64,000 nucleotides of DNA, from NCBI GenBank assembly GCA_017302295.1, contig JAFLDS010000003.1, positions 1 to 64,000 of the forward strand, in the 5' to 3' direction. This DNA comes from Thauera sp. (GTDB lineage: Bacteria; Pseudomonadota; Gammaproteobacteria; Burkholderiales; Rhodocyclaceae). The notes beneath the pieces are model-generated. The model did not search any database. It had not been told where the DNA came from and worked only from the letters and a program-made list of their open reading frames with translations. The position numbers and the translations under genes were made by a program. Numbering within the stretch: position 1 is the stretch's first letter; each line of letters begins with the position of its first letter. This document shows positions 30,452-58,638 of the stretch, piece after piece.

Positions 30452-30470
30452 CATCGTCGGTTCGGACCAT
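30452..30470 (-). promoter_or_regulatory. Regulon site A (SDR/ETF-QO operon)
   Basis: Read toward the gene: ATGGTCC-GAAC-CGACGATG, matching the consensus TTTAGTCC-N4-GGACGATG. A -10-like TAGACT starts 20 bp downstream (30426-30431, minus strand). Confidence 0.65.
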
Positions 30471-30471
30471 G

Positions 30472-30492
30472 AAAAAACGGCCACGCGGGCCG
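30472..30492 (-). terminator. Intrinsic terminator of the HsdA-like gene
   Basis: On the minus strand CGGCC-CGCGT-GGCCG is followed by six T (plus-strand A-run 30472-30477). It lies 32 bp after the SDR stop at 30524 and overlaps the promoter zone of the next operon. Confidence 0.75.
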
Positions 30493-30523
30493 CTTTGCGG
30501 AACATGAGTGCCCTGCGGCAGCG

Positions 30524-31291
30524 TCAGAAACGGTCGCTGCGGGTCATCGCGTCCATGCCGCCATCGACGAAGAGCACGGTGCCATGCACGAAGCTGGCCT
30601 GGTCCGACTGCAGGAAGAAGACCGCGTTGGCGATCTCGTCCGGGGCGCTGTTGCGGCCTATCGGCGCGACGAAGTTGCGGATGGCCTCGCCATAGCGGGG
30701 ATCGGCCCGCGACGCGTCCAGCAGCGGCGTCTCGACAGCGCCGGGGGCGACGACGTTGACGCGGATACCCTTCGGTCCCAAGGCCACCGCCTTGCGGCGG
30801 GCGTACACGGTGACCGCATACTTCGAACCCGCATAGGCTGCCTGCGGCATCGCCATCGCATCGGCCTGCGCCAGGGCGCCTGCCTCGTCGCCCGCCAGCA
30901 TTGCGCCCACCATCGGCAGCTTGTCCATGCCCGGATGGACCGAAGCAACCGAGCCGATCAGCACCACCGAGGGTTTGCTCCCCCGCGCCAGCGCCTCTTC
31001 CAGCCCGTCGACGATCTCGGTCATGCCAAAATAATTGACGCCGACGATCACGCTGCTCGAGGGGGCGGTCGGTCCGAGCCCGGCGCAGCACACCAGACCA
31101 TCGAGCACGCCGCCGCATGCTGACAGCGCCGCCTCGACGGCCGCCTTGCGACCCGCTGCGGTGGACAGGTCGGCGACGATGTCGGCGTTCTGGCGGTCGA
31201 TGCCGATGACGCGGTGGCCCGCGCCTTTCAGTTGCGCGCAGACGGCTGCGCCGATGCCCGATGCGGAGCCAGTGACGACGGTAACGGCCAT
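30524..31291 (-). CDS. 3-alpha-hydroxysteroid dehydrogenase/carbonyl reductase-like SDR
   Basis: The 255-residue protein closely resembles Comamonas testosteroni HsdA along its length as I recall it: VTGSASGIGAAV, VIGIDRQNADIVADLST, DGLVCCAGLGP, VNYFGMTEIVDGL, YAGSKYAVTV (YxxxK), NVVAPGAVETPLL, DPRYGEAI, and a FVHGTVLFVDGGMDAM end. HsdA oxidises 3-alpha-hydroxysteroids with NAD and reduces carbonyls. The start at ATG 31291 has GGGAG seven bases upstream; an earlier ATG at 31366 is at the promoter. It is monocistronic, with its own terminator and regulon site B. This is the strongest single pointer to a steroid-like substrate, though the family also acts on other ketones. Confidence 0.85.
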   Translation of the reverse strand: MAVTVVTGSASGIGAAVCAQLKGAGHRVIGIDRQNADIVADLSTAAGRKAAVEAALSACGGVLDGLVCCAGLGPTAPSSSVIVGVNYFGMTEIVDGLEEALARGSKPSVVLIGSVASVHPGMDKLPMVGAMLAGDEAGALAQADAMAMPQAAYAGSKYAVTVYARRKAVALGPKGIRVNVVAPGAVETPLLDASRADPRYGEAIRNFVAPIGRNSAPDEIANAVFFLQSDQASFVHGTVLFVDGGMDAMTRSDRF

Positions 31292-31363
31292 GAGACACTC
31301 CCTGGATGCCCGAGACGGGCCAATTGATGATTCGACAGTATCCCGGCCGTTTTCCCCCGACGG

Positions 31364-31383
31364 CATCGTCCGGGCGGACTAAA
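31364..31383 (-). promoter_or_regulatory. Regulon site B (HsdA-like SDR)
   Basis: Read toward the gene: TTTAGTCC-GCCC-GGACGATG, a full match to the consensus. GATACT, a -10-like hexamer, lies 21 bp downstream at 31337-31342 on the minus strand. Confidence 0.75.
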
Positions 31384-31453
31384 CGCGCCGCTTGATATTC
31401 GGCCTAAAATCGAACAACTCCCACGCCCGTTAGATCATCGAGGAACTCGCGTC

Positions 31454-32344: not shown

Positions 32345-32393
32345 GACGTGGGGGTTTGCGGCGCGGACGCAGCCGCAGCCCTGCCCTCGCCGG

Positions 32394-33533
32394 TCAGTCG
32401 CGCCGGCTGAGGGCCGCGACGCTGTTGAGCATGATGCGCACCAGTTCGGTCTGCCGGCGGACGCCAGTCTTGGAGAAAATCGAGCGCAGGTGGGCGCGCG
32501 CGGTGTTGCGGCGGATGTTCAGCGCCTCGGCCGCCTCTTCCAGCGACAGGCCGTTGGCCAGTTCCATCGCGAGTGCAGTCTCGGCGGGCGTGAGGTTGAA
32601 GAGTTGCTTCGCAGCCGCCGTGCTCGCCAGCGACTTGCCGGCCGCGTCACGGATATACACCACCGCCGACGGCTGCCCCTTGCCTTCCGCCCATTCCTGC
32701 GAGTGCACCGGCTCGACGACCACGCCGAGGTTGACCTGGCCCGAAGGGCGCGACACGGACATCGCCGACGCCACCGCCAGCGGGTCGCCCGAATGCCGCG
32801 CAAAAGCGTTGCGGATCAACTGCTGCAGTTCGCGGTTATCGCTCGGATAGGAGGCCTCCAGCCGGCCGCCCACGAGCTTGAGGCCGTCATTGGCCGCCAG
32901 CAGCTCACGCGCAATCAGGTTTTGCTCGAGCACCTTGCCGGTGTCGTCGAGCACCAGCGTGCCCACGGACAAGCGCCCGATCGCCTGCGAATACAGGCTG
33001 CCGAGCGATTCGCTGCGATCGAGCAGGTTGTGAATGTGCAGCGCACGACGCAGGTGGGGCAACAAGGTCTCGCAGCGCGCGCGATCGAGCGCGCTGAACC
33101 GGGGCGCCGCCTCGCCGCGCGTGATCCGGAAGCGCAACTTGCCGGAATCAGGCGTCGAGATGTCGACACCCATGACGTGGAACACGTCGACCGGGGCGCA
33201 CCAGTGCTGGTAGTAGGCCGTGCGCCGCCATTCGCCCTCGGTCATCAGGTCCTCGACGGTGAAGACCTTGTCGATGGGCTGATTGATGAAGGGCGTCATC
33301 GAATGGCCGTAGGGCAGATAGGTGACCTTGTCGCCCCCTTCCACCCCCACGGCGATCATCATGCCCAACTCACTCTCGTCGGGACTGCGCAGGATCAGGG
33401 TGACGTAGTTGGCCTCGAACAGGACGCGGAACATCTCGAGCGCCTCGCCCCAGCGCCGGCTGTCGAGCGAGGCATCGTAAAGCGCCGACACGATACGGTC
33501 GTATTCGCCCAACTCCAGTTCGATCGCTTTCAA
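32394..33533 (-). CDS. LuxR-type transcriptional regulator with PAS-like N-terminus (TeiR-like)
   Basis: This 379-residue protein has a C-terminal LuxR/GerE helix-turn-helix (LTPAETALAMELANGLSLEEAAEALNIRRNTARAHLRSIFSKTG) and a long N-terminal region with a PAS-like part (~180-300). There is no receiver or autoinducer domain. Size and layout match steroid-cluster LuxR regulators such as TeiR of Comamonas. It lies 48 bp after etfA and should be the last gene of the SDR-OYE-MaoC-etfBA operon, so it would be produced by the regulon it probably controls. I prefer TTG 33533, seven bases after GAGGGG, over TTG 33548. The inducer is unknown. Confidence 0.88.
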   Translation of the reverse strand: MKAIELELGEYDRIVSALYDASLDSRRWGEALEMFRVLFEANYVTLILRSPDESELGMMIAVGVEGGDKVTYLPYGHSMTPFINQPIDKVFTVEDLMTEGEWRRTAYYQHWCAPVDVFHVMGVDISTPDSGKLRFRITRGEAAPRFSALDRARCETLLPHLRRALHIHNLLDRSESLGSLYSQAIGRLSVGTLVLDDTGKVLEQNLIARELLAANDGLKLVGGRLEASYPSDNRELQQLIRNAFARHSGDPLAVASAMSVSRPSGQVNLGVVVEPVHSQEWAEGKGQPSAVVYIRDAAGKSLASTAAAKQLFNLTPAETALAMELANGLSLEEAAEALNIRRNTARAHLRSIFSKTGVRRQTELVRIMLNSVAALSRRD

Positions 33534-33581
33534 TCCCCTTCCCCTCAAATTTCTGGCGAGCGGGCCCGAGGGCCCGCCGAT

Positions 33582-34529
33582 TCACCCTGCTGACAAGCTC
33601 GTCGTCAACGCAGGCACCGCATCGAACAGGTCGGCAACGAGGCCGTAGTCGGCAACCTGGAAGATCGGCGCATCCGGATCCTTGTTGATCGCCACGATCA
33701 CCTTGGAGTCCTTCATGCCGGCCAGGTGCTGGATGGCGCCCGAGATCCCGACCGCCACATACAAGCCCGGCGCGACAATCTTGCCGGTCTGCCCGACCTG
33801 ATAGTCGTTGGGCACGAAGCCCGCATCGACCGCTGCGCGCGACGCACCCAGCGCCGCACCCAGCGTGTCGGCAAGCGGGTCGAGCAGGCGGTGATAGTTT
33901 TCGCCATTGCCCAGCCCGCGCCCACCAGATACGACGATTGCCGCTGCACCGAGTTCCGGCCGTTCGGACTTGCTCAATTCACGACCGAGCACGCGCGACA
34001 AGCCCAGGTCGGGGCCGGCCGCGATCGCCTCGACTGTCGCGCCGCCACCGCTGCCCGCAGCATCGAAGGCTGTCGTGCGTATGGTGAGGACGTCCACCGG
34101 CTGATCCGACTCTACCGCGACCATGACGTTGCCGGCGTAAATCGGGCGCTCGTAACGTCCCGGCGCAGCGATCGCGACCACGTCCGAAACCGCCGCGATA
34201 TCGAGCAGCGCGGCGACGCGAGGGGCGAGATTCTTGCCGAAACTCGTGGCCCCGACAAGCACCGCGCGGTAGCCGCCCTCGCCCGCCACCCGCTGTGCCA
34301 GCACGGCGAGGTTCTCGGCCAGGGGCTCGGCGTAATGCGGCGCCTCGACCTTCAGCACGCGCGACACACCCGCAATCGACTGGGCCTGCGCCACCGCAGC
34401 GTCGCAGCCCTGCCCCGCAACCAGCACATCGATGTCGCCGCCGAAACGGGCTGCGGCCGTCACCGCGTTCAGGGTCGCCGTCGCCAGACGGCTGTTATCG
34501 TGCTCTGCAATGACCAGTGTCTTCATCAT
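33582..34529 (-). CDS. etfA: Electron transfer flavoprotein alpha subunit
   Basis: This 315-residue protein has the ETF-alpha N-terminal domain ([20 protein letters not shown]) and the C-terminal FAD-binding domain with [42 protein letters not shown] and [20 protein letters not shown]. It carries FAD and moves electrons from acyl-CoA dehydrogenases to ETF:quinone oxidoreductase. It follows etfB by five bases. This pair is embedded in the catabolic operon, so it is probably a pathway-dedicated ETF instead of the housekeeping one. Confidence 0.96.
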
Positions 34530-34534
34530 CTGCC

Positions 34535-35284
34535 TCAGATCACCTTCGCTTCGTTGCGAAGCTTATTCACCAGTTCGGCCACGTCGGCCACCTTGACGCC
34601 GCCCTTGCGCGCCGCCGGCTCGGCATGTCGCACATGGCGGAGGCGCGGCGCGACATCCACGCCAAGCTCGCCTGCAGCGACCACGTCCAGCGGCTTCTTC
34701 TTCGCCTTCATGATGTTGGGCAGGGTGGCATAGCGCGGCTCGTTCAGGCGCAGGTCAGCGGTGACGACCGCCGGCAGCTTGAGTTCGATCGTCTCCAGGC
34801 CACCGTCGATCTCGCGCGTCACCGCCACCACGCCCTCGCCCACCGCGACCTTGGAAGCAAAGGTGGCCTGCGGCCAGCCCATCAGCGCGGCCAGCATCTG
34901 GCCGGTCTGGTTGGCGTCGTCGTCGATCGCCTGCTTGCCGCAGATAACCATCTGCGGCTGCTCGCGCTCGGCCACCGCCTTCAGCAGCTTGGCCACCGCC
35001 AGCGGCTGCAGTTCCGCATCCGTTTCGACGAGGATGGCACGATCGGCACCCATCGCCAGCGCGCTGCGCAGGGTTTCCTGGCATGCGGAGGTGCCGCAAC
35101 TGACCGCGACCACCTCGGTGGCGACGCCAGCTTCCTTGAGGCGTACCGCCTCCTCGACAGCGATCTCGTCGAAGGGGTTGATCGACATCTTCACGCCGGT
35201 CAGCTCGACCCCGCTCTGGTCGGACTTGACCCGCACCTTCACGTTGTAATCGACGACCCGCTTAATCGGGACAAGAATCTTCAA
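34535..35284 (-). CDS. etfB: Electron transfer flavoprotein beta subunit
   Basis: This 249-residue protein begins [19 protein letters not shown] and shows the ETF-beta signatures [58 protein letters not shown] and [27 protein letters not shown]. It binds AMP structurally and docks on acyl-CoA dehydrogenases. It lies 39 bp after the MaoC gene and directly before etfA in the SDR-OYE-MaoC-etfBA-luxR operon. Confidence 0.96.
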
Positions 35285-35323: not shown

Positions 35324-35776
35324 TCAGGCCGCGAGGGGCTCGCGGCGCAGCATCACGACATGTGCATCGAAACTGATCAGCAACTCATCGCGCTGGTTGA
35401 GCAGTTCGAAGCGTGAAATCAGCAGGCCGCGCTCGAGCCGGCTGCCCGGAGCACGCTCGACGTGGGTGACGCGGGCGCGCAGCTCGTCGCCTGCGACGCC
35501 CGGCCGGTGAAAGCGCAGCTTTTCCCATCCGCGGCCGGCGATCGAAGCCGTCTCGTCGGTGGGAATGCTGTGGCTCAGGCGGATCGTCACCGACAACAGG
35601 TGCACGCCGGCCGCAAACAGCTGGCCGATCGGCGATTTCGCCGCCGCAGCTTCATCCACGTGTGGCGGGAACGGATCCCACTCGCTGGCGAAGGACTTGA
35701 TGTTGTCGGCGGTGAGCAGGTAGCGCGCGGACGATTCGCGCGGCTCGTCGAGGACGACATCTTCCCAGTAGATCAT
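35324..35776 (-). CDS. MaoC-like dehydratase/hydratase domain protein
   Basis: This 150-residue single hotdog-fold protein has DNIKSFASEWDPFPPHVDE, a variant of the MaoC hydratase motif, then SPIGQLFAAGVHLLSVTIRL and a C-terminal strand set (LRARVTHVERAPGSRLERGLLISRFELLNQRDELLISF). Relatives hydrate enoyl-CoA thioesters. The usual Asp-x4-His pair appears as D-P-F-P-P-H, one residue different in spacing from textbook examples. Its ATG overlaps the OYE stop (35773-35776). Probably a side-chain or ring beta-oxidation hydratase of this pathway. Confidence 0.82.
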   Translation of the reverse strand: MIYWEDVVLDEPRESSARYLLTADNIKSFASEWDPFPPHVDEAAAAKSPIGQLFAAGVHLLSVTIRLSHSIPTDETASIAGRGWEKLRFHRPGVAGDELRARVTHVERAPGSRLERGLLISRFELLNQRDELLISFDAHVVMLRREPLAA

Positions 35777-36867
35777 GCGCCCACCCCTTCGGCGAGCGGG
35801 TAATCGGTGTAGCCCGCAGCGCCCGGCGAGTAAAGCGTCCTGCGGTCGAAGCGGGCAAGCGCCAGGCCCTCGCGCATACGGCGCACCAGATCGGGGTTAC
35901 CGATGAAGTCGCGCGCGAAGGAAACCGCCTCGCCCTGGCCGCCCGCGATCGCTGCCTCGGCGGCAGCCGCATCGAAACTGTCGTTGAGGATCACCGCGCC
36001 TCCGAAGCCGTCGCGGGCCAGCGCAAAGGCATCGACACCCGGCGCCTCGGCGCGCATCGCGTGCGCGTAGGCCAGGCCCATGCCCTTCACCTGACGCAGC
36101 AGCTCGGCATGGGTGGCGACCGTGTCCTCGTCCTGAATATCGTTGTAGCTGTTGCCAACGCGGAAGCGCAATCCGACCCGGCCAGCACCGATCGCTGCAG
36201 CCATCGCCTGCAAGCACTCCGCCGCGAAGCGCGCTCGATTTGCGACGCTGCCGCCGTAATCGTCGGTGCGCTGATTGGTGCCCGAGCACATGAACTGCAT
36301 CGGCAGATAGCCGCTGGTGCAGTGCAGCTCAACACCGTCGAACCCGGCTTCGCGAGCCTTGATCGCGGCCTGCGCATGCTCGGCCACGACGGCGCGCACC
36401 TCGTCGGTGGAGAGCGCGCGCGGCATGTCGTAGGGCTGCATGCCGGCGCTGTCGGTGAAGACTTCGCCCGCGGCGCGGATCGCAGACGGTGCCACCGTGT
36501 CGACACCCTCGCCCTTGATGTGGTGGCTGCCGATGCGGCCGGCGTGCATGATCTGCAGCACGATGCGCCCGCCGCGCGCATGCACGGCGTCGGTCACCTT
36601 GCGCCAGCCGGCGACCTGCGCCGCGCTGGCGATGCCGGGCTGGCGGCAATAGGCCTGGCCCGCGGCGCTCGGCCACGCGCCCTCGGCGACGATCAGTCCG
36701 GCCTCTGCGCGCTGGGCGTAGTACTCGACCATCAGCTCACCGGGCACGCCCTGCGCGTCGGCGCGGTTACGCGTCATCGGGGCCATCACGATGCGGTTGG
36801 CGAGTTCGAGGTCGCCCAGGCGCACCGGGCTGAAAAGGTGGGAAAGCGCTGCCATCGCGGTACTCAC
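35773..36867 (-). CDS. Old Yellow Enzyme family alkene reductase (NemA-like)
   Basis: This 364-residue FMN-binding TIM-barrel protein has LFSPVRLGDLELANRIVMAPMTRNRA, IVLQIMHAGRIG, DGVELHCTSGYLPMQF, NQRTDDYGGS and the phosphate loop end SFARDFIGNPDLV. OYEs reduce activated C=C bonds of enones with NAD(P)H. The ligand-binding pair, normally His-x-x-Asn or His-x-x-His, reads H-C-T-S here, so the second residue is Ser. That may reflect a bulkier or different substrate. It overlaps both neighbours by four bases (ATGA), so translation is coupled in the operon. Confidence 0.92.
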   Translation of the reverse strand: MSTAMAALSHLFSPVRLGDLELANRIVMAPMTRNRADAQGVPGELMVEYYAQRAEAGLIVAEGAWPSAAGQAYCRQPGIASAAQVAGWRKVTDAVHARGGRIVLQIMHAGRIGSHHIKGEGVDTVAPSAIRAAGEVFTDSAGMQPYDMPRALSTDEVRAVVAEHAQAAIKAREAGFDGVELHCTSGYLPMQFMCSGTNQRTDDYGGSVANRARFAAECLQAMAAAIGAGRVGLRFRVGNSYNDIQDEDTVATHAELLRQVKGMGLAYAHAMRAEAPGVDAFALARDGFGGAVILNDSFDAAAAEAAIAGGQGEAVSFARDFIGNPDLVRRMREGLALARFDRRTLYSPGAAGYTDYPLAEGVGA

Positions 36868-37631
36868 AGCGCGGTGACCAGCACCGACGACCGCCCGCCA
36901 TCGACCGGCAAGCTGGCGCCAGTAATGTAGGACGCCTCGTCACTGGCGAGGAACAGGATGGCGTTGGCGAGCTCCTCCGGCTGGCCCACGCGCCCCATCG
37001 GAATCAGCTTCTCGGTGTTCTTGCGCGAAGCCTCATCGGCCAGCATGCCGGCTGTCGCCGGCGTTTCCACCACGGCGGGAATCACCACGTTGACTCGGAC
37101 GCCATGCGGCGCACCTTCGGCCGCAGCCGCACGCGAGAAGTTGTCGATCGCCGCCTTGGCCGCGGAATAGCCCGCCATCCACGGCGTGCCGAGCTGGCCG
37201 CAGATCGAAGAAACGTTGACGATCGCGCCGCCTTTGCCCTTCATCAGGCGCATCGCGGTACGCGTGCCCCAGAAGGTGCCATCGACCGAGGTCGAGAAGT
37301 TGGCATGCCAATCGGCGGTACTCATCTCCTCGATGCTGCCCCAGGTGTATGCCATGGCGTTATTCACCAGCACATCGAGCCGGCCATGGCGTTGCGCCGC
37401 TGCTTCGAGCGCTGCGGTGAAGCCGGCCTCATCGCTGACGTCGGCCACCACCGCCTCGGCCTTGCCTCCGGCCGCGACGATGCCCGCAACGACTGCATCC
37501 AGCGGCTCACGCCGGCGACCGCAGACCACGACGGTCGCACCCTCTTGCGCCAGGCGCTGCGCCGTGGCCGCGCCAATCCCGCTGCCGCCGCCCGTCACGA
37601 ACGCCACCTTGCCCTGCATACGACCTGCCAT
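36864..37631 (-). CDS. SDR family oxidoreductase, first gene of the OYE/etf/luxR operon
   Basis: This 255-residue FabG-type SDR has TGGGSGIG (cofactor loop), LDVLVNNAMA, YSAAKAAIDNFSRAAAAE (YxxxK) and the C-terminal ITGASLPVDGGRS. ATG 37631 is preceded by a strong GAGGAGG ribosome-binding site; earlier starts in the same frame run over the promoter. Its stop overlaps the OYE start. Regulon site C with a TACCCT -10-like element lies upstream. It probably oxidises a hydroxyl or reduces a keto group of the ring substrate. Confidence 0.9.
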   Translation of the reverse strand: MAGRMQGKVAFVTGGGSGIGAATAQRLAQEGATVVVCGRRREPLDAVVAGIVAAGGKAEAVVADVSDEAGFTAALEAAAQRHGRLDVLVNNAMAYTWGSIEEMSTADWHANFSTSVDGTFWGTRTAMRLMKGKGGAIVNVSSICGQLGTPWMAGYSAAKAAIDNFSRAAAAEGAPHGVRVNVVIPAVVETPATAGMLADEASRKNTEKLIPMGRVGQPEELANAILFLASDEASYITGASLPVDGGRSSVLVTAL

Positions 37632-37756
37632 TTCCTGCCTCCTCGTGGCTAGCGCCGCGCTCAGCGCGGCGTGAGTGCTTTCGGTCGACCGGGCTGCCGG
37701 GTCGGCAGCCGCCGGTGAATACGTGGAACAAGGGTAGAAAATCCGCACCCCAGTGC

Positions 37757-37775
37757 CATCGTCCGATGAGACTAG
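37757..37775 (-). promoter_or_regulatory. Regulon site C (SDR-OYE-MaoC-etfBA-luxR operon)
   Basis: Read toward the gene: CTAGTCT-CATC-GGACGATG. A TACCCT hexamer (TAnnnT) lies 20 bp downstream at 37731-37736 on the minus strand. This site stands ahead of the operon that encodes the LuxR-type regulator. Confidence 0.7.
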
Positions 37776-37827
37776 CGACGATGGACGAGCCCTCGGTGGC
37801 GGACATTCAGGCGCAGCGTACGCAAGC

Positions 37828-37896: not shown

Positions 37897-38940
37897 TCAG
37901 CCGGGAAAGCGCACCCTGACCCGTTCGGTGGTCGGCAGCGCCTGGCAACTCAGGGTCCACCGCTTGGCCAGATCCTTGGCGTCGAGCACCTCGTTGTGCC
38001 GCAGATGTACCTCGCCCTCGACCACCTGACACATGCAGGACGCGCACATGCCGGCCTGGCAGGAGTGCGGCGCGTTGATGCCCGCCTTGAGCGCGGCGTC
38101 GAGCAGGGTTTCGGTGCCCGCCACACTCAGCGTGTGGACCTCCCCGTCGAGCTCGATCTCCACCGTGGCGCGCTCGACAGTGGTCTCCGGCGCGGGCGCG
38201 GCGGCGTTGATCGCGGCAACGTCTTCTTCGTCCGGAAGCGAGACGAAACGCTCGACGTGCACCTGCTCGGCCGGCATGCCGGCCTTGTCGAGCGCTGACA
38301 CCATCGCATCCATGAACAGCCCCGGACCGCAGATGAAGGCCTGCGCCTGCGCCCACGGCCTCGCGAGTTCCGCGAGCTGCGCCACCGAGGGCACACCCTG
38401 CACCGAATCGAGCCAATGGATGACCTGCAGCCGGGACGGATGCGCCGCGGCGAGTGCCTTCAGGTCGTCGCGGAAGATCACCGAGCGCTCGTCGCGGTTG
38501 GCATACAGCAGGCAGATGCGCCCCTGGCCGTGCGCCAGCACCGAGCGCAGGATGGAAAACACCGGCGTGATCCCGCTGCCGCCGCCGCACAGTAAGAAGT
38601 CGCCTTGCAGCGCGGCCGGGGTGAACACCCCCGCCGGCGCCATGACCTCGAGCGTGTCGCCCGGTCGGACGTGGTCGCAAATCCAGTTCGAGCCCCGCCC
38701 GCCCGTCACCCGCTTGACGGTGACGCGCAGCGTCGCATCGAGCGTCGGCGCGCTCGACATCGAGTAGCAGCGCGGCAGATGACGGCCCAGCACCGGCAAG
38801 CGCAAGGTCAGGAACTGGCCGGGCCGATACTTGAAAGTCTCGGCCAGCTCGGGCGGCACCTCGAACACGACCGACTTGGCGTCGTGCGTCTCATCGGCGA
38901 CCGCCCTGACCTTCAGGGCGTGATAGCGCTGGGCTGTCAT
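37897..38940 (-). CDS. KshB-like ferredoxin-NAD(P)H reductase with C-terminal 2Fe-2S domain
   Basis: This 347-residue class-IA oxygenase reductase has an FAD domain with RCYS (57-60), a nucleotide domain with GGGSGITP (119-126) and CGPGLFM (204-210), and a plant-type ferredoxin domain with Cys294, Cys299, Cys302 and Cys332 (C-x4-C-x2-C-x29-C). This is the layout of KshB, HmpX and PaaK-type reductases. It most likely supplies electrons to the KshA-like Rieske oxygenase encoded 12 kb away; it is co-transcribed with the HsaA-like gene 31 bp upstream. I start it at ATG 38940 (MTAQRYHALKV); earlier in-frame ATG 39003 overlaps the preceding gene. Confidence 0.9.
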   Translation of the reverse strand: MTAQRYHALKVRAVADETHDAKSVVFEVPPELAETFKYRPGQFLTLRLPVLGRHLPRCYSMSSAPTLDATLRVTVKRVTGGRGSNWICDHVRPGDTLEVMAPAGVFTPAALQGDFLLCGGGSGITPVFSILRSVLAHGQGRICLLYANRDERSVIFRDDLKALAAAHPSRLQVIHWLDSVQGVPSVAQLAELARPWAQAQAFICGPGLFMDAMVSALDKAGMPAEQVHVERFVSLPDEEDVAAINAAAPAPETTVERATVEIELDGEVHTLSVAGTETLLDAALKAGINAPHSCQAGMCASCMCQVVEGEVHLRHNEVLDAKDLAKRWTLSCQALPTTERVRVRFPG

Positions 38941-38971: not shown

Positions 38972-40195
38972 TCAGATGTACGGATCGGCGTTGGGCAGGC
39001 CAAGCATCACCGCGCCGTGCGCACGCGCATAGGCATCGGTGTTGTTGGCGATATGGCCGCGTGCCTGGTGGATGTCGCGGAACACACGCTCGATCGGATT
39101 GCTCTTGTAAGTACCCGACGCAGCGCAGGCCCGCATCAGCTCACTGACCGCCGCGGCGCACTGCTTGGGTACCTGCGACGCCTGGGCGCGCTGCATCAGG
39201 CGCTCCTCCACCGGCATGCGCGCACCCGTCCTGGCGCAATCGACGATACGGGCGTAGTTGCGGAACAGCACCAGCTTGAGCTGATCGGAAGTCATCATCG
39301 CTTCGCACACGGCCTGTTGCGCATTGACGTCCTCGGCTGTCTTGGCACCATGCTTCCCGACGTGTGCCGCTGCGCGTTCTCGGAAGCTGGCGATCGCGCC
39401 GTCGAGCGCGCCGAGGCAGGCCGACGAAACCGCGCGCTGGAACACCTGAGTGAAGGGAATCTTGTAGATCCAGCCCGGATTGGTCTGGCGGCCCGGGCAG
39501 CCGGCATCGCTGTGGTCGTTGGTGCGATGGGTGCGATGTTCGGGCACGAAGCAGCCGTCGACGACGATGTCATGACTGCCGGTCGCACGCAGACCGAGCA
39601 CGTCCCAGTTCTTCTCGATACGGTAATCCGACTTCGGCAGCAGGAAGGTGGTGTGCTCGAGCTGACCCGAGCCGTCCTTCTTCGGCAACAGACCGCCAAG
39701 GAAGATCCATTCGCAGTGCTCGACGCCGCTAGAGAATCCCCAGCGGCCCGAGAAGCGGTAGCCGCCCTCGACCGCTTCGGCCTTGCCGGTGGGCATGTAG
39801 GTCGAGGCGATCAGCACGCCGGTGTCCTTGGTCCAGACGTCCTGCTGCGCCTGCTCGGGGAACAGCGGCAGCTGCCAGTTGTGCACCCCGATCACGCCGT
39901 AGATCCAGGCGGTGGACATGCAGCCTTCGGCAAGCGCCATCTGTACACGGTAGAAAACGCGCGGGTCCAGCTCGTAGCCGCCGAAGCGCTTCGGCTGCAG
40001 CACGCGGAACAGGCCGGCCTCTTTCATCTCCTGCACCGTTTCCACCGGTACCATGCCCGCCGCCTCGGCGGCACGCGCCCGCTCGGCAAGGCGCGGCGCC
40101 ATTGCCCGGGCCCTCGCCACCAGTTCGACTGCGTCAGGGGTCATGTAGTCTTCGCCCACAATCCCCAGAACTTCATCCTTACCAACTGAGCCCAT
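38972..40195 (-). CDS. HsaA-like flavin-dependent monooxygenase, oxygenase component
   Basis: This 407-residue protein has the acyl-CoA dehydrogenase fold but belongs to the group D flavin monooxygenases: GLFRVLQPKRFGGYELDP, GVIGVHNWQLPLF, YMPTGKAEAV, RWGFSSGVEHCEWIFLGG, LGLRATGSHDIVV and an ending FRDIHQARGHIANNTDAY like the HsaA C-terminus. HsaA hydroxylates a phenolic seco-steroid using reduced flavin from HsaB. No HsaB-like flavin reductase is in the window. The start at ATG 40195 has AGGA seven bases upstream. It leads an operon with the KshB-like reductase and carries regulon site D. The substrate is probably a phenol or ring ketone. Confidence 0.87.
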   Translation of the reverse strand: MGSVGKDEVLGIVGEDYMTPDAVELVARARAMAPRLAERARAAEAAGMVPVETVQEMKEAGLFRVLQPKRFGGYELDPRVFYRVQMALAEGCMSTAWIYGVIGVHNWQLPLFPEQAQQDVWTKDTGVLIASTYMPTGKAEAVEGGYRFSGRWGFSSGVEHCEWIFLGGLLPKKDGSGQLEHTTFLLPKSDYRIEKNWDVLGLRATGSHDIVVDGCFVPEHRTHRTNDHSDAGCPGRQTNPGWIYKIPFTQVFQRAVSSACLGALDGAIASFRERAAAHVGKHGAKTAEDVNAQQAVCEAMMTSDQLKLVLFRNYARIVDCARTGARMPVEERLMQRAQASQVPKQCAAAVSELMRACAASGTYKSNPIERVFRDIHQARGHIANNTDAYARAHGAVMLGLPNADPYI

Positions 40196-40284
40196 TTCGT
40201 GTCCTCCGTGATCGCCCGATGGGCGTTTTTTGCGAGTCATCCTCACTGCTACGGCCTCAATTTTCCACATGGACGCAGGACGAT

Positions 40285-40303
40285 CATCGTCTGAATGGAC
40301 TAA
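40285..40303 (-). promoter_or_regulatory. Regulon site D (HsaA-like/KshB-like operon)
   Basis: Read toward the gene: TTAGTCC-ATTC-AGACGATG. An AT-rich AAAATT follows after 20 bp (40259-40264), a weak -10 candidate. Confidence 0.65.
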
Positions 40304-40412
40304 CGTAAACGGCTGAGCGGTAAAGCTTCTTTCCCTTATGCCGCAAGGGCTCCGGGCAGCAGGGCGGTTTGCGCATGTGCGGGTCGCGCTCTCGGACGGT
40401 GACGATGAGCCG

Positions 40413-40430
40413 TAACCCTTTTGGACGATG
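40413..40430 (+). promoter_or_regulatory. Regulon site E (YCF48/RND operon)
   Basis: TAACCC-TTTT-GGACGATG on the plus strand; the left half-site is degenerate while GGACGATG is exact. AATAAT follows after 19 bp (40450-40455), a good -10 candidate. Confidence 0.65.
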
Positions 40431-40512
40431 CCCCGCTCGCTCACGAACCAATAATGCTCACACCTTGCCGCCCCTCTCTGGAGGGTATCTGGAACAACAT
40501 AGGAGGCGTCTC

Positions 40513-46495: not shown

Positions 46496-46523
46496 TTTCG
46501 AAATCCCTGTGTGGTCGTTTTGG

Positions 46524-47906
46524 TCAGTTACCCACGGCGCGCAAGGACGCAGGCGTGAACATCTCCGGCGTCAGATCACCCTTGTTGAGGATCGGACCCT
46601 TCTCACGCTCTTGCAGAAGCGAGTTCCCGATGTAAGCGCCAGAGTTGAGGTCGTGATAGAACGAGGTGCCCGCCTGCCAGGCATTCAGGTCGAACGCGTA
46701 GTAGTGGTTGATGAAGGCGTGCTGCCACAGCTCGCCACGCTGGTCGTAGTAATCGCCGACCGAGGCTTGCCAGTTGTCTTCATCAATGAACATCACGCGC
46801 TTGCCGAAGGCATGGCGATAACCTTCCTTGAGCGAACCCTCCAGAACCCACACGCGACGCAGTTCGTAGCGCAGGAAATCGGGGTTTGCGTGATTCTTCT
46901 TCAGCAGGTCGGCGTACTTGACGGTTTTCGCGTGCAGACGATAGGTATTCGCCGGGATGTACATCTCCTTCTTGCCCAGCAGCTTCCACTCATAGCGGCT
47001 CGGATCGCCGTTGAACAGTCGCTCCTGGTCGATGGTGAGCTTGCCCGACGAACCCGCCAGCGGAGAGTCGAAGCCGTAGGTCGGCACCTGACGAACACGA
47101 CGCGTGCCCGGGTCATAGGTCCACGCCAGGCGCTTGTTCTTGGCGAAGTTCACCGGCTCCTGCGAAACGGTGATGTTGCCGCGGTCGCGCTCGGGCAGCA
47201 GCGCTCCCGACAGCGAATAGGCCATCAGACCTTCCATCGGCTTGCCGATCTGGTCGGGAGAGGTCACCACGTTCAGGTTCTTGCTGATCGCACGGCCCCA
47301 GGTGATGGTGCCGTCCGAGGCGACGTCCGCGAGATCTCGAACCATCTCTTCCGAATGCGCGCGATACGGGAAGTTCATGTTCGCGAGCACTTCCATCGCA
47401 CTCTTCGGGATGGGGAAGCCGATGGGACCCTTGTAACCCGTGTAGCCGAGGCCGCCGTCGGTCAGCTCCGCCTCGAGGGCGTTCTTCTTGGCGACCTCGC
47501 AAATGACGTCGGGGTAACGGAAGTCGCGCCGGCTCTGATAAACGGGAATCCGGAAGGTATCCGGGTACTTCTTCAGCATGGCCTTCTGGCCTTCGCTCAG
47601 CTTGTCCGCATACTTGTCCATGTTCGCGGCGCTGATCTGGAACAGCGGCTTGTCGTCGGGGTAGACGTCAACCGGATGCTGACCCGTGTGCAGCGAATAC
47701 TTGATGCCCGGGGGCGTACCCAGCCACTTGCCGGAGAACGGCGGAATCGTGCCCTCCTTGTTGCCGGCCGCCTCGGCGCCGACGCAAGTGAGTTCCTTGC
47801 CAAGCTTGGCCGCCTCGGCTTCACTGACCTTGGCCATCGCACTACCGGCCGCCAGCGACAACGCGATGGTTGTCATGACCGGCACCCAGACACGGGTTTT
47901 CATCAT
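46524..47906 (-). CDS. DUF1329 family LolA-fold lipoprotein-carrier-like protein
   Basis: This 460-residue exported protein has a signal peptide (VPVMTTIALSLAAGSAMA) and the DUF1329 body: LTCVGAEAAGNKEGTIPPFSGKW, PYRAHSEEMVR, WTYDPGTRRVRQVPTYGFDSP, MYIPANTYRLHAKTV, RYELRRVWVLEGSLKEGYRH and RVMFIDEDNWQASVGDYYD. The fold is LolA/LolB-like, suited to binding lipids in the periplasm. It is the first gene of the DUF1329-DUF1302 operon. Regulon site F lies about 125 bp upstream. It probably shuttles the hydrophobic substrate between the outer-membrane protein and the RND transporter. Confidence 0.92.
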   Translation of the reverse strand: MMKTRVWVPVMTTIALSLAAGSAMAKVSEAEAAKLGKELTCVGAEAAGNKEGTIPPFSGKWLGTPPGIKYSLHTGQHPVDVYPDDKPLFQISAANMDKYADKLSEGQKAMLKKYPDTFRIPVYQSRRDFRYPDVICEVAKKNALEAELTDGGLGYTGYKGPIGFPIPKSAMEVLANMNFPYRAHSEEMVRDLADVASDGTITWGRAISKNLNVVTSPDQIGKPMEGLMAYSLSGALLPERDRGNITVSQEPVNFAKNKRLAWTYDPGTRRVRQVPTYGFDSPLAGSSGKLTIDQERLFNGDPSRYEWKLLGKKEMYIPANTYRLHAKTVKYADLLKKNHANPDFLRYELRRVWVLEGSLKEGYRHAFGKRVMFIDEDNWQASVGDYYDQRGELWQHAFINHYYAFDLNAWQAGTSFYHDLNSGAYIGNSLLQEREKGPILNKGDLTPEMFTPASLRAVGN

Positions 47907-48028
47907 CTAAGTCTCCTTCCTGTGGGGAATTCTGTTGGTCCCGTTGACCCGACTAATCCGATGCAAGGTCGTCCCTTTGTGACGCACTTGCATCTGCTTG
48001 CATTGTTTTTCGCGCGGGTCATCCGCCA

Positions 48029-48048
48029 CATCGTCCGATGGGACTAAA
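48029..48048 (-). promoter_or_regulatory. Regulon site F (DUF1329/DUF1302 operon)
   Basis: Read toward the gene: TTTAGTCC-CATC-GGACGATG, a full consensus match. AACAAT follows after 21 bp (48002-48007), a fair -10 candidate. Confidence 0.75.
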
Positions 48049-50861: not shown

Positions 50862-50926
50862 GGTGTCTCCGTCCTTGTCGTTGTTGTCCGATCCTCACCT
50901 TAGGCACCGCTGCCGGCTGCGGAAAC

Positions 50927-50942
50927 GTCCAAAAGGACGATG
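50927..50942 (+). promoter_or_regulatory. Regulon site G (KshA-like gene)
   Basis: GTCC-AAAA-GGACGATG on the plus strand, a perfect core, 151 bp before the ATG at 51094. No convincing -10 follows at the usual distance, so the promoter may be further downstream. Confidence 0.62.
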
Positions 50943-50965: not shown

Positions 50966-50983
50966 CATCGTCCAAACAGGGGA
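50966..50983 (-). promoter_or_regulatory. Regulon site H (MBL/CoA ligase operon)
   Basis: Read toward the gene: TCCCCT-GTTT-GGACGATG, with the left half degenerate and GGACGATG exact. It faces left and lies 23 bp beyond site G, so one protein array might serve both divergent genes. Confidence 0.58.
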
Positions 50984-51093
50984 TGCGCGGGCGACCTGCG
51001 GCCACGAGAATTCGCTACGTTCGGGCTTTCAGGCCGGCGCGTGGCGCCAACCCGATGGATTTCACACTGGATCAATACGAAGAGGAGACCCGC

Positions 51094-52200
51094 ATGGCCA
51101 CAACGAAAGACTATCGCCTAGGTGAATACACCTTCCCGCGCGGCTGGTTCATGATCGCCGAAGCGTCGGAACTGGATACCCACAAGCCGCTCGCGGTGCG
51201 CTTCTTCGGCCAGGACTTCGCGCTCTACCGCGGCCGTGAAAGCGGCAAGGTCGTGCTGCTCGACGCCTACTGCCCGCACATGAAGACCCACCTCGCGGCG
51301 CCCAACAAGACCTCGTATGTGGTGCTCGATGGCGGCGGCACCAACGTCGAAGGCGACGGCATCCGCTGTCCGTACCACGGCTGGCGCTTCGGTGCCGACG
51401 GCAAGTGCGACCACATCCCCTACCACGAGGGTCAGATCCCCGCCGCGGCCAAGGTCAAGTCTTGGCCGGTGGTCGAGAGCCTGGGCGCGATCTGGGTGTG
51501 GCACGACCCCGAAGGCGGCGAGCCGGAATGGGATCACCCCAGCCTCAAGGAATGGAACGACCCGGCCTGGGTGCATTGGAAGTTCGACCACCTGGGCATC
51601 CTCAACCAGCACCCGCAGGAAGTCATCGACAACATCTGCGACTACGGCCACCTGAGCCCGATTCACGGCTCGACCGTGCTCAAGTACGAGAACGAATTCA
51701 AGGGCCACAATGCCATCCAGCGCCAGTGCGGCCCGCATCGCACCCTGGTCGGCGCGGACGGCGTCAGCCCGATCCTGCACACCATCACCATCTACCATGG
51801 CCCGGGCGTGCTGATCTCGCACCTGACCGGCCTGTACGACGCGGTGATGATGATCTGCAACACGCCGGTCGATGACGGCACGATCAAGGTTTGGCATGCG
51901 CTGCTGGTGAAGTCACCGAGCGGCAGCAAGGTGGCAACCCACACCGACATGGTGGCCGCACGCCACTACCAGGAGATGGCGCTCACCGCCTTCGCCCAGG
52001 ACTTCGAGGTCTGGTCGCACAAGGCAGCCTGCCTGAACGGCCTCTTCATCCCGAGCGACGGCCCGTTCATGAAGGCGCGCATCTGGTACAAGCAGTTCTA
52101 CAACCCGCGCGCGAAGAAGACCGAGTTCCTTGAGCAGTGCGAGGGCTACTACGTGCCCAAGGGCATCGCGCCCTACACGGAAGCTGAAGCGGTCGCCTGA
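51094..52200 (+). CDS. KshA-like Rieske non-haem iron oxygenase
   Basis: This 368-residue oxygenase alpha subunit has the Rieske ligands Cys60-x-His62 and Cys92-x2-His95, with an unusually long insertion between them. The mononuclear iron motif is N180, D183, H186, H191 (DNICDYGHLSPIH). KshA, its nearest recognised relative by layout, hydroxylates 3-ketosteroids at C9 and opens ring B together with KshB. The reductase partner is probably the KshB-like protein at 37897-38940. ATG 51094 has AGAGGAG seven bases upstream; an ATG at 51055 lacks one. It stands alone between regulon site G and a strong terminator. Substrate could be a steroid, bile acid or terpenoid. Confidence 0.87.
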   Translation: MATTKDYRLGEYTFPRGWFMIAEASELDTHKPLAVRFFGQDFALYRGRESGKVVLLDAYCPHMKTHLAAPNKTSYVVLDGGGTNVEGDGIRCPYHGWRFGADGKCDHIPYHEGQIPAAAKVKSWPVVESLGAIWVWHDPEGGEPEWDHPSLKEWNDPAWVHWKFDHLGILNQHPQEVIDNICDYGHLSPIHGSTVLKYENEFKGHNAIQRQCGPHRTLVGADGVSPILHTITIYHGPGVLISHLTGLYDAVMMICNTPVDDGTIKVWHALLVKSPSGSKVATHTDMVAARHYQEMALTAFAQDFEVWSHKAACLNGLFIPSDGPFMKARIWYKQFYNPRAKKTEFLEQCEGYYVPKGIAPYTEAEAVA

Positions 52201-54943: not shown

Positions 54944-54961
54944 CGGTCCTTGTTCGTCCTG

Positions 54962-56080: not shown

Positions 56081-57282
56081 CACAGCACCTCGAACAGGCC
56101 TGCCGCGCCCATGCCGCCGCCGATGCACATCGACACCACCACGTAGCGCACGCCACGGCGACGGCCCTCGAGCAGCGCGTGACCGACCATGCGTGCGCCC
56201 GACATGCCGAAGGGGTGGCCAATGGAGATGGCGCCGCCATTGACGTTCAGCCGGTCGTTGGGGATGCCGAGCTTGTCGCGGCTGTAGAGCACCTGGCAGG
56301 CGAAGGCTTCGTTGATTTCCCACAGGCCGATGTCGCTCACCTTGAGGTTGAAGCGCTCGAGCAGCTTGGGGATGGCGAACACCGGGCCGATACCCATCTC
56401 GTCCGGGGCGCAGCCGGCGACCGCGATGCCACGATAGGCGCCCAGCGGCGCGATGCCACGGCGCTCGGCCTCGTCACGGCTCATCACCAGCGCGGCCGAG
56501 GCGCCGTCGGAGAACTGCGAGGCGTTGCCGGCGGTGATGAACTCGCCCTGCTTCACCCACTGGCCGTCCTTGAACACCGGCTGCAGCTTGGCGAGATCGG
56601 CCAGCGTGGTCGAGGCGCGGTTGCACTCGTCGCGGGTGGCGATCACGTCCTCGTGGCCCACCGGCTTGCCTTCCTTGTCGAACACCAGCTTCCTCGCCGC
56701 CAGCGGCACGATCTCGGCATCGAACAGGCCGGCGGCCTGGGCGGCGGCGGTGCGCTGCTGGCTCTGCAGCGAGAATTCGTCCTGCGCGGCGCGCGAAATG
56801 CCGTAGCGCGCCGACACGATCTCGGCCGTCTCCAGCATCGGGATGTAGGCCGCGGGCACGATCGCCTTCACCGCCTCGGACTGCGCGCGGTAGGTGTTCT
56901 TGTGCTTGGTCTGGGTCAGCGACAGCGACTCGACGCCGCCGGCCACCGCGATCTTCATCTCGCCGGCCAGGATATTCTTGGCGGCGACGCCGATCGTCAT
57001 CAGGCCCGACGCGCACATGCGGTCGAGCGCCATGCCCGGCACGGTGTCCGGCAGGCCGCCGGTGTAGGCGCACAGGCGGCCGATGTTGTAGGCCTGGGTG
57101 CCCTGCTGCACGGCGGCGCCCATGATCACATCCTCGACCGCCGCCGGCTCGATACCGACGCGCTCGACGACGGCGCGCACCACATGGCCGCCCAGCACCG
57201 GCGCCTCGGTGTCGTTGAAGGAACCGCGGAAGGACTTGGTGAGCGCAGTGCGCGCGGTGGAAACGATGACGGCTTCGGTCAT
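56080..57282 (-). CDS. Acetyl-CoA acyltransferase (thiolase)
   Basis: This 400-residue thiolase has the acyl-accepting Cys90 ([11 protein letters not shown]), [19 protein letters not shown] with the catalytic His, and the C-terminal Cys in [15 protein letters not shown]. Thiolases cleave 3-ketoacyl-CoA with CoA to release acetyl-CoA or propionyl-CoA. Its neighbours (two acyl-CoA dehydrogenases, MaoC, IpdF-like SDR) fit a FadA6-like step in the breakdown of ring-derived acyl-CoAs. It follows the MaoC gene by 22 bp. Confidence 0.94.
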
Positions 57283-57304
57283 GGCGATGTTCTCTCTCGG
57301 GAAT

Positions 57305-57766
57305 TCAATCGTTGAAGGTGTAGCGGCTGATGGTGTCGACCACGCAGCCGGGGCGCTCGCTGCCCTCGATCTCGATGGTCACGCGCACGGTGGATTGCAC
57401 CGCGTCCTTGATGCGTTCCACCTTGAGGATCTCGCCGCGACCGCGGATGCGCGAGCCAGCCTTGACAGGCGCCGGAAAGCGCACCCGATCGCAGCCGACG
57501 TTCACACCCATCTTCAGGTTGTCGGCGCGGATCAGCTGCGGCAGGAACAAGTTGGCCAGCGCCAGTGTCAGGTAGCCGTGCGCAATGCAGGCGCCGAAGG
57601 GGCCGTCCTTGGCACGCTCGGGGTCGACGTGGATCCACTGGTGGTCGTCGGTGGCGTCGGCGAACTGGTCAATGCGGTCCTGGTCGAGCGCGACCCAGTC
57701 GGTCGTGCCCAGGTCCTGGCCTTCGGCCGCGACCAACTGCTCGGCGCTGGAGAAAACCATGGTCAT
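57305..57766 (-). CDS. MaoC family (R)-enoyl-CoA hydratase-like protein
   Basis: This 153-residue hotdog-fold protein has the complete hydratase motif: [36 protein letters not shown], in which Asp and His of D-x4-H are the catalytic pair. It then has [24 protein letters not shown]. It hydrates enoyl-CoA thioesters. I start it at ATG 57766 with GAGGG about eight bases upstream; an earlier ATG at 57811 overlaps the SDR gene. It sits between the IpdF-like SDR gene (10 bp) and the thiolase gene. Confidence 0.9.
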
Positions 57767-57776
57767 CGCCGCGCCC

Positions 57777-58562
57777 TCAAGCGTGCTGCGAGCTGACGGA
57801 GAGCACTTCACCCGTCATGTACGACGCGTAGTCGCTGGCGAGGAAGACCATCACGTTGGCCACTTCCCACACCTCGGCAGCGCGGCCGAAGGCTTCGCGG
57901 CTGGCGAGCTGGGCGAGCAGTTCCTCGCTGGAGGCCTTCTTCAGGAATTCATGCAGCGCGATCGACGGCGACACCGCGTTGATGCGCACGCCGTGCTCGG
58001 CTGCCTCGACCGCCGAGCAGCGCGTCAGCGCCATCACGCCAGCCTTGGCCGCGGCGTAGTGGGCCTGCCCCTTCTGCGCGCGCCAGCCCAGCACCGAGGC
58101 GTTGTTGACGATGGCACCGCGACCGCGCTTTTCCATGTGCGGCAGCATCGCGCGCGTCATGCGGAAGGTGCCGGTGAGGGTGATGTCGAGCACCCGGTTC
58201 CACTCGTCGTCGGTCATCTCGGTGACGCGCTTCTCGCCACCGAGGCCGGCATTGTTGATCAGCACATCGACGCCGCCGAGCTTGTCCTCGGCCGCGGCGA
58301 TCAGGGCCTGCACCTCATCCTCGTTGGTGACGTTGCACAGCTGGCCCCAGACGTTCTGCAGCCCAGTGTCGGCCTTGAGCTTGGCGACGGCTTCTTCCAG
58401 GCGGCGCGGATGGATGTCGGAAATCATCAGCGCGCGACAGCCTTCTTCGGCGCACTTGCGCGCCGCGGCAAAGCCGATGCCGGCTCCGGCCGCTGCGGTA
58501 ATCAAGACGGACTTTCCAGCGAGCAACTGGTGACCGGGGACGTAGGCGGGGGCTTCTTTCAC
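57777..58562 (-). CDS. IpdF-like SDR oxidoreductase
   Basis: This 261-residue SDR opens with YVPGHQLLAGKSVLITAAAGAGIG, the extended PGH-LL-GK lead and AAGAGIG loop that I associate with IpdF of cholesterol catabolism, which oxidises a hydroxylated indanone-CoA intermediate. Other motifs are VDVLINNAGLGG, YAAAKAGVMAL (YxxxK) and INAVSPSIALHEFL. I prefer GTG 58562, preceded by GAGG, over ATG 58595, because TATAAA at 58595-58600 would be the -10 of the promoter carrying regulon site I. The IpdF assignment is from memory of the family and moderate only. Confidence 0.83.
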   Translation of the reverse strand: MKEAPAYVPGHQLLAGKSVLITAAAGAGIGFAAARKCAEEGCRALMISDIHPRRLEEAVAKLKADTGLQNVWGQLCNVTNEDEVQALIAAAEDKLGGVDVLINNAGLGGEKRVTEMTDDEWNRVLDITLTGTFRMTRAMLPHMEKRGRGAIVNNASVLGWRAQKGQAHYAAAKAGVMALTRCSAVEAAEHGVRINAVSPSIALHEFLKKASSEELLAQLASREAFGRAAEVWEVANVMVFLASDYASYMTGEVLSVSSQHA

Positions 58563-58620
58563 GGCGTGAACCTCGAAGGGTGGATATGGCCTCATTTATA
58601 GGGAGGTCGCAGGGTGCCGG

Positions 58621-58638
58621 CATCGTCAAAACGGACGG
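58621..58638 (-). promoter_or_regulatory. Regulon site I (IpdF-like/thiolase/acyl-CoA dehydrogenase operon)
   Basis: Read toward the gene: CCGTCC-GTTT-TGACGATG. A TATAAA hexamer begins 20 bp downstream (58595-58600), the best -10 of all nine sites. Confidence 0.62.

Follow-up and report, generated by a model that had tools for sequence, protein, structure and literature searches.

A 20-bp inverted repeat as the probable operator of a steroid-catabolism regulon in Thauera

How might the many operons needed for steroid degradation be switched on together in a proteobacterium? A review describes regulation in bile-acid-degrading Proteobacteria as largely unknown. Here we analyse 64,000 nucleotides of Thauera sp. 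DNA (the window), which form positions 1-64000 of the 233-kb contig C23 in a 4.1-Mb genome and in which a short motif recurs upstream of catabolic genes. By computation, we find that this motif is an imperfect inverted repeat with a near-constant distance to a -10-like hexamer, that its sites are conserved in other genera and that it co-occurs with the gene of a LuxR-type regulator, R1. We put at roughly 0.87 the probability that an R1 dimer binds the motif, centred at about -42.5, as the operator of a steroid-catabolism regulon and activates about 20 promoters over 100 kb.

Nine sites in the window share an inverted repeat

The original prediction described nine copies of an asymmetric motif, and all nine are present:

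30452..30471, minus strand: site A, CATGGTCCGAACCGACGATG; -10 TAGACT at 30426-30431; before a short-chain dehydrogenase/reductase (SDR) gene, 29543-30397
31364..31383, minus strand: site B, TTTAGTCCGCCCGGACGATG; -10 GATACT at 31337-31342; before an SDR gene, 30524-31291
37757..37776, minus strand: site C, GCTAGTCTCATCGGACGATG; -10 TACCCT at 37731-37736; heads a six-gene run
40285..40304, minus strand: site D, GTTAGTCCATTCAGACGATG; -10 GAAAAT at 40260-40265; before HsaA-like, then KshB-like genes
40411..40430, plus strand: site E, CGTAACCCTTTTGGACGATG; -10 AATAAT at 40450-40455; before a YCF48/BNR-repeat gene and an RND transporter
48029..48048, minus strand: site F, TTTAGTCCCATCGGACGATG; -10 AACAAT at 48002-48007; before DUF1329 and DUF1302 genes
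50923..50942, minus-strand reading CATCGTCCTTTTGGACGTTT: site G; -10 TAAGGT at 50897-50902; 61 bp before a metallo-beta-lactamase-fold gene, 49788-50861
50966..50985, plus-strand reading CATCGTCCAAACAGGGGATG: site H; -10 GAGAAT at 51006-51011; 69 bp before kshA
58621..58640, minus strand: site I, CACCGTCCGTTTTGACGATG; -10 TATAAA at 58595-58600; before an SDR gene, 57777-58562, then MaoC, thiolase and acyl-CoA dehydrogenase genes

The unit is an imperfect 20-bp inverted repeat, CATCGTCC-N4-GGACGATG, found usually as CTTAGTCC-N4-GGACGATG, in which GGACGATG and its complement CATCGTCC flank four bases and the left half is variable. Its core is GTCC-N4-GGAC with GATG and CATC arms, of which the left is the looser. 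The right half stood as predicted: GGACGATG is exact in six sites (B, C, E, F, G and H) and one base off in A, D and I. The upstream half, given as TTTAGTCC, is exact only in B and F, which are the full exact matches to TTTAGTCC-N4-GGACGATG. With up to three mismatches, this 20-letter pattern recovered four of the nine sites (B, C, D and F), whereas 100 shuffled sequences averaged 0.16 and never reached four. The asymmetric form was rejected and the inverted repeat put in its place. For a wider view, 314 sites were reduced to 165 non-redundant ones by dropping any with at least 60% identity over 60 nt downstream. Their commonest left-half bases are C-T-T-A-G-T-C-C; the right half has its first G in 73% of sites and its other seven bases in 97-100%, frequencies that reflect the choice of sites with a matrix favouring this form. 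Site A is identical at 20/20 positions upstream of the ortholog in another genome of the genus (G139), and site F also has a counterpart upstream of the DUF1329 ortholog there.

The motif co-occurs with a LuxR-type regulator

One gene of the window stands out as a candidate for the protein that reads these sites:

32394..33533, minus strand: R1, a TesR/TeiR-like LuxR regulator with a GAF-like N-terminal domain, a PAS-like domain and a C-terminal LuxR/GerE helix-turn-helix (HTH)

Within Pfam, GerE (E 1.5e-6, residues 319-372 of 384) and HTH_30 are the only R1 matches at E<=0.001, with no autoinducer-binding domain and no kinase domain. The structure model consists of an N-terminal domain, a long helix, a second domain and the HTH. 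Phytochromes, phosphodiesterase GAF domains and sensor kinases make up most of its Foldseek matches, all of low TM-score; VqmA is another, and on the basis of these matches the two domains are read as GAF-like and PAS-like. A PDB sequence search with an R1 profile gave nothing at E<=0.01. In the recognition helix region, residues 341-350 and 352-367 do not vary among 24 homologs. Site C heads a run of six same-strand genes, with gaps of <50 bp, that ends with R1, and a site likewise heads the gene run containing the R1 ortholog in 38 of 80 related loci under a strict gap rule. The nearest named R1 proteins of cultured strains are from Thauera (83-87% identity). The window genome encodes only R1 and one paralog, R2, at E<=1e-30. 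G139 has a third R1-like paralog (C1:1836048-1837181, 59% identity), with a near-perfect site, TATCGTCCATCCGGACGATG, 118 bp upstream.

The idea that a LuxR-type regulator lies behind the motif is supported by presence and absence across genomes. Of 150 genomes of the family, 12 carry an R1 relative (E<=1e-30), and at least three tight motif matches are found in 8 of these 12 carriers (own genome included) versus 0 of 138 non-carriers (Fisher p ~9e-11, shared ancestry uncorrected). The looser GTCY-N4-GGACGATG matched in 128 of the 150 genomes, a background too high to separate them, so the tighter pattern was used. In the genus itself, the tight form has 0 and 1 match in two sampled species that lack R1 and 11 in the other R1 carrier. 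At the level of the order, at least 4 of 399 genomes carry R1 at E<=1e-40 (own included), with strong sites nearby in the three besides the window genome; up to four candidates per genome were scored, and carriers may have been missed. Distant homologs with a near-identical recognition helix (RRNTARAHLR or RKNTARAHLR) lie near a site in genomes G022 and G087. The three genomes G027, G087 and G131, of one genus, have four or five tight copies each and R1-like proteins of 39-48% identity. In G027 there are five exact tight matches elsewhere in the genome, and their spread over ~690 kb suggests a regulon not confined to one cluster.

We also searched 80 loci of R1 relatives from Thauera, Aromatoleum, Azoarcus, Zoogloea, Stutzerimonas, Pseudomonas, Marinobacterium, Halomonas and metagenome-assembled genomes (some sharing a genome) with a matrix built from all 18 contig sites, that is, those of the window and nine described below. 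A site of score >=19 is present in 79 of the 80 (266 sites in 1.53 Mb), the exception being a 5-kb piece, and 20 of the loci gave 72 raw matches versus 0 for each of 20 column-permuted matrices. Across ten whole genomes the tight pattern has 89 matches versus 1 when reversed, mostly in one or two clusters per genome. Marinobacterium sites precede matching genes, among them those for KstD, HsaA, HsaB, HsaC and enoyl-CoA hydratase. Further afield, a Vibrio alfacsensis plasmid (L190, G+C 45%) has three sites, before an HsaA-like gene, etfB and an enoyl-CoA hydratase gene; a Sphingobium plasmid has, ~55 bp before kshA, a site whose right half differs by one base; a Cupriavidus replicon has two sites above 20; and a Burkholderia arboris replicon has weak matches only (17). 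The V. alfacsensis plasmid, a record of quite different base composition, carries a large steroid-degradation cluster with an R1-like regulator.

The sites also keep their place relative to genes. In counting orthologs with a site directly upstream, we dropped matches with <40% identity, with half of the query or less covered, overlapping a better match or near a locus end, and left sites <17 uncounted. A site was found for the HsaA-like gene in 47/47 cases, an SDR gene at C23:131817 in 25/25, the YCF48-like gene of site E in 23/23, the SDR gene of B in 54/64, that of C in 13/14, that of I in 7/10 and the enoyl-CoA hydratase gene in 4/4. For control genes internal to runs, the counts are 0/47 for the KshB-like gene, 5/69 for RND, 0/25 for etfA, 3/26 for etfB, 0/13 for the Old Yellow Enzyme gene and 1/79 for R1.

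Could R1 be a mere neighbour, and the operator belong instead to R2 (C23:81072-82277) or to a LysR-type regulator (C23:118342-119265)? Both lie inside the cluster, and a weak site (12.8) is found upstream of R2. However, R2 orthologs (57-68% identity) are present in only 3 of the 10 genomes with site clusters; the other seven have R2 matches of <=45% identity only, R1 itself among them. A LysR match at E<=1e-50 is present in four of the ten and in none of the other six, and the recognition helix of R2 is unlike the R1 form. These genomes were chosen for R1, so its presence in them is by construction, and the family table is the less biased test. On this patchy presence, R2 and LysR were rejected as sole readers, and we consider it unlikely that the operator is theirs; cross-binding of R1 and R2 to one motif is possible.

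A fixed distance separates the motif from the -10 element

The -10-like hexamers predicted 19-21 bp beyond sites A, B, C, E and I measure 20, 21, 20, 19 and 20 nt from the motif, and D (GAAAAT, 19 nt) and F (AACAAT, 21 nt) also have one. The mean -10 score peaks 20 nt past the motif in four sets: the 9 window sites, 9 others on the contig, 20 in G139 and 10 in genome G044. The score table follows the E. coli consensus; counts of hexamers with A at the second and T at the sixth position (A2-T6) do not rest on this table. Among the 165 sites, such a hexamer lies at 20 nt in 105, at 19 nt in 21 and at 21 nt in 33, where ~6 are expected per offset. A total of 150 sites have one at 19-21 nt (118/125 when the window genome, G139 and G044 are excluded); three-offset windows centred at <=17 or >=23 give 5-28. 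The 19 sites paired between the window genome and G139 before orthologous genes show a footprint: identity is 97% within the site itself, drops to 57% across the 20-nt spacer, rises to 79% at the -10 hexamer and falls again to 55% beyond it, with 49% ahead of the site.

If the hexamer is taken as -12 to -7, the motif spans -52 to -33 and would be centred near -42.5 relative to the start site. This is the class II position of LuxR, whose lux box is ~20 bp long. No evident -35 was found: TTGACA at >=4/6 and a spacing of 16-18 occurs in 21 of the 150 sites, with controls at ~10%. At 3/6 it occurs in 78/150 versus 35% in controls, an excess that the TG of the motif itself would yield. The view that the motif overlaps the -35, as for a class II activator, is supported by the fixed spacing in the four site sets and in 150/165 sites. 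Requiring a score of >=11, a gene start no more than 260 bp away and an A2-T6 hexamer 19-21 nt past the motif leaves 20 pairings of site and orientation, which precede 19 genes; site I (TATAAA, not A2-T6) adds a twentieth gene.

This layout also bears on orientation. Each copy had been said to face its gene, which is probably wrong for G and H, where a conserved -10 lies at 20 nt on the opposite side. With the -10 away from the GGACGATG side, H would drive kshA and G the metallo-beta-lactamase-fold gene; judged by sequence, the two sites thus probably serve the opposite genes from those assigned. G139, G044 and Aromatoleum toluclasticum (L099) share with site G an A2-T6 hexamer at 20-21 nt, which is absent in Marinobacterium; at site H one at 20 nt is found in G139, G044, L099 and Marinobacterium (L180). 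Over the 100 bases compared, Azoarcus sp. Aa7 does not differ from G044, so the two are not independent. The orientation originally given for G and H was rejected on the position of the -10. Two further sites, C23:114991 and 120152, have a likely -10 on both sides. At site B, a Cache-domain protein gene (31454-32344) diverges, and on the weak reverse side a TAAAAT hexamer follows at 21 nt; this site might serve both the SDR gene and the Cache-domain gene.

Repressor operators are generally placed more loosely relative to their promoters, and the constancy of the motif-to--10 distance, within one base in 150/165 sites and with TTGACA near control level, argues against a TetR- or IclR-like dimer that would block RNA polymerase from the motif. 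The motif is indeed a dyad near a promoter, and repressors of steroid genes have been described in Comamonas and Actinobacteria (PMC6678751, PMC8700777); yet it follows a LuxR-type protein over many genera, and we judge repression improbable. The fixed distance would also suit a promoter element of an alternative sigma factor acting without a separate regulator. We regard this as very improbable, given that the 20-bp dyad is seemingly usable from either side (G, H, 114991 and 120152), unlike a sigma -35, and that the -10 is sigma-70-like.

Sites cluster within 100 kb of the genome

The nine sites are real and not the whole set. Over 184 kb of C23 (91% coding), the best 30 matches to the nine-site matrix are all intergenic; they represent 22 distinct sites (9 training sites and 13 outside the window), some found on both strands, and none lies beyond 131 kb. 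Genes were called with a simple, non-standard codon-usage caller, which gave a coding fraction of 0.00-0.06 in the records L082, L175, L190 and L193, where intergenic labels are meaningless. As a held-out set, nine further C23 sites at 73-131 kb, all intergenic, score 18.8-28.7 by the window-only matrix. Eight of them lie upstream of genes for HsaC, KstD and HsaB relatives, an SDR, an enoyl-CoA hydratase and MFS transporters, the last being two genes with three sites. The ninth (91857), among the strongest, precedes a predicted 67-aa open reading frame (ORF; C23:91510-91713) that has no Pfam match and would add a small uncharacterized protein to the regulon. In G139, the site paired with it likewise lies before an ORF of equal length, 54% identical to this one. 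At least nine strong sites thus add to the nine operons first listed, and the regulon appears to comprise ~20 promoters, about twice the original number.

Scanned genome-wide, the motif does not recur at equal density away from catabolic promoters. Exact GTCC-N4-GGACGATG has 8 matches in the whole genome, 6 of them on C23, and the two off-contig ones (C10:3613 and C26:3133) fall inside predicted genes. Allowing one mismatch, C23 has nine matches at 73-131 kb and others at 169, 199 and 232 kb, of which that at 169 kb scores below 13 by matrix. All 10 genome matches to the tight form TAGTCY-N5-GACGATG lie within 99 kb (C23:31-131 kb). In 189 kb from elsewhere in the genome, the 18-site matrix found none >=20, the best (19.5) lying in a predicted coding sequence, and in the first 30 kb of the window the top match scores 13.9, in coding DNA. 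Chance or codon bias, suggested by the abundance of GGACGATG in coding DNA (281 matches genome-wide versus 77 for the reversed word; 149 in the window at <=1 mismatch versus a shuffle mean of 86), has a negligible probability and was ruled out, as the full motif is intergenic, clustered and conserved.

Genes behind the sites

The genes behind the window sites include the following:

33582..34526, minus strand: etfA, electron-transfer flavoprotein (ETF) alpha; run of site C
34535..35284, minus strand: etfB, ETF domain; run of site C
35324..35776, minus strand: MaoC-domain protein; run of site C
35773..36855, minus strand: Old Yellow Enzyme family reductase; run of site C
36864..37619, minus strand: SDR dehydrogenase; first gene in the run of site C
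37897..38940, minus strand: KshB-like reductase; behind the HsaA-like gene
38972..40195, minus strand: HsaA-like monooxygenase subunit; first gene behind site D; NF045629 at E 1.2e-108, below its cut-off
46524..47906, minus strand: DUF1329 protein; first gene behind site F
51055..52200, plus strand: KshA, 3-ketosteroid 9-alpha-hydroxylase oxygenase; KshA_C at E 3.5e-59

The run of site C reads, from 37619 down to 32394, SDR, Old Yellow Enzyme, MaoC, etfB, etfA and regulator. Outside the window, relatives of HsaC, KstD and HsaB lie behind sites, as do genes for enoyl-CoA hydratase, SDRs, MFS transporters, an esterase, a ChsH2-domain protein and an aldehyde dehydrogenase. Because the majority of NCBIfam matches fall short of the curated cut-offs, these names denote family and not proven function. 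The relatives of KshA, HsaA, HsaC, KstD and HsaB all lie within 100 kb, which marks a steroid-degradation cluster around R1. That the catabolic genes form one regulon is supported by the held-out sites, the whole-genome density and the conservation across proteobacterial genera.

The porin loci had been described as free of the motif. The DUF1302 gene at 44864-46495 lies 28 bp behind the DUF1329 gene of site F and is therefore probably a regulon member, although its identity with the porin that was meant is uncertain. The adjacent DUF1329 and DUF1302 genes (44864-47906) could be an outer-membrane pair for steroid uptake or export, which is a guess. Beside site I, small ORFs at 58864-59431 resemble, on a first impression, a VapBC-type antitoxin and a PIN-domain fragment.

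Proposed mechanism

We propose that a dimer of the LuxR-type R1 binds CATCGTCC-N4-GGACGATG, centred at about -42.5. Bound R1 would stand in for the missing -35 and recruit sigma-70 RNA polymerase to the -10 located 20 nt downstream. Through its GAF/PAS part, R1 probably senses a steroid or a pathway intermediate. It would then turn on ~20 promoters over 100 kb, covering relatives of KshA, KshB, HsaA, HsaB, HsaC and KstD, beta-oxidation (side chain and ring), transport and ETF. As the last gene of the site-C run, R1 would also raise its own level. We infer this binding, activation, ligand and positive autoregulation from the pattern of sites and genes.

Several observations weigh against this reading. 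The R1 model is only of middling confidence (pLDDT 71, pTM 0.46), and 15 of the 165 sites have no -10 of the kind described. TeiR is described in PMC6678751 as a membrane protein of polar location that has kinase activity. Four of the 12 family carriers, which have more distant homologs, show 0 or 1 match (G022 1; G060, G083 and G129 0). Of nine stretches near such distant homologs, three have a site above 20, and G027 shares the recognition helix of G087, yet none of the stretches near its regulator scores above 16. The 80 loci were selected for holding R1, and many are from Pseudomonas. An upstream site is scarce among orthologs of the SDR gene of A (14/71), of the DUF1329 gene (0/11) and of the gene at 113866 (0/3), and it was counted in 2/27 for the metallo-beta-lactamase-fold gene, for which the reverse-read site is below the threshold used.

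Comparison with known systems

Induction of steroid genes in Comamonas testosteroni requires TeiR/TesR, a LuxR-type positive regulator (PMC6678751, PMC6895838, PMC8700777); in this species a LuxR gene lies beside thiolase, dehydratase and FabG genes (PMC10637631). Genomes G250 and G398 have an R1-like gene (47-50% identity) directly behind SDR, MaoC and thiolase genes; in G250 the SDR gene is preceded by a site. This order resembles the C. testosteroni LuxR neighbourhood and is why R1 is taken as TesR/TeiR-like, a candidate ortholog. Like TesR/TeiR, R1 has a C-terminal LuxR HTH and lies in a steroid gene cluster; TeiR differs in being described as a polar membrane kinase, and R1 has no Pfam kinase domain. 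The steroid cluster of Pseudomonas stutzeri Chol1 holds two TeiR-like genes, and a strain deleted for one of them shows a strong delay in cholate degradation and in growth (PMC8399759, citing unpublished data). A report relayed in PMC6895838 confines tesR-like genes, among testosterone degraders, to C. testosteroni; the distribution found here suggests, on the contrary, that TesR-like control is widespread. We found no TeiR/TesR operator in the passages of open-access literature consulted, and a published site is possible.

The proteobacterial repressor EdcR, which acts on estradiol catabolism in Caenibius tardaugens, also controls a steroid pathway; it is a TetR-like repressor of another gene cluster (PMC8700777). 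For VqmA (PDB 7dwm), the Foldseek match to the R1 model has an E value of 2e-5, with a TM-score of 0.21/0.33, 18% identity and another ligand. VqmA joins a PAS domain to a LuxR-type HTH. LuxR-type class II promoters share with the sites described here the dyad length, the position, the lack of a clear -35 and a LuxR HTH; they differ in that the motif is other than the lux box and that R1 has no autoinducer-binding domain in Pfam. KstR and KstR2 of Actinobacteria offer the parallel of a single operator spread over steroid-degradation genes. They are TetR-family repressors, and no TetR family was found among the cluster proteins run through Pfam, which cover part of its genes.

A LuxR-type class II regulon is thus a known kind, and the novelty is an operator shared across Proteobacteria in a pathway of largely unknown control. 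It is likely that one operator, near letter-for-letter the same in Beta- and Gammaproteobacteria and present as a variant before kshA on the Sphingobium plasmid, is read directly by a GAF-PAS-LuxR one-component steroid sensor, a model that would replace the view of TeiR as a membrane kinase working through a phosphorylation cascade. An operator with a fixed promoter layout makes regulons readable from genomes and yields candidate genes for unassigned steps; it also offers components for steroid biosensors and opens the role of TesR/TeiR to experimental test. If the proposal is true, the motif is the missing cis-element of proteobacterial steroid catabolism and the counterpart of the KstR operator, with the opposite logic of activation.

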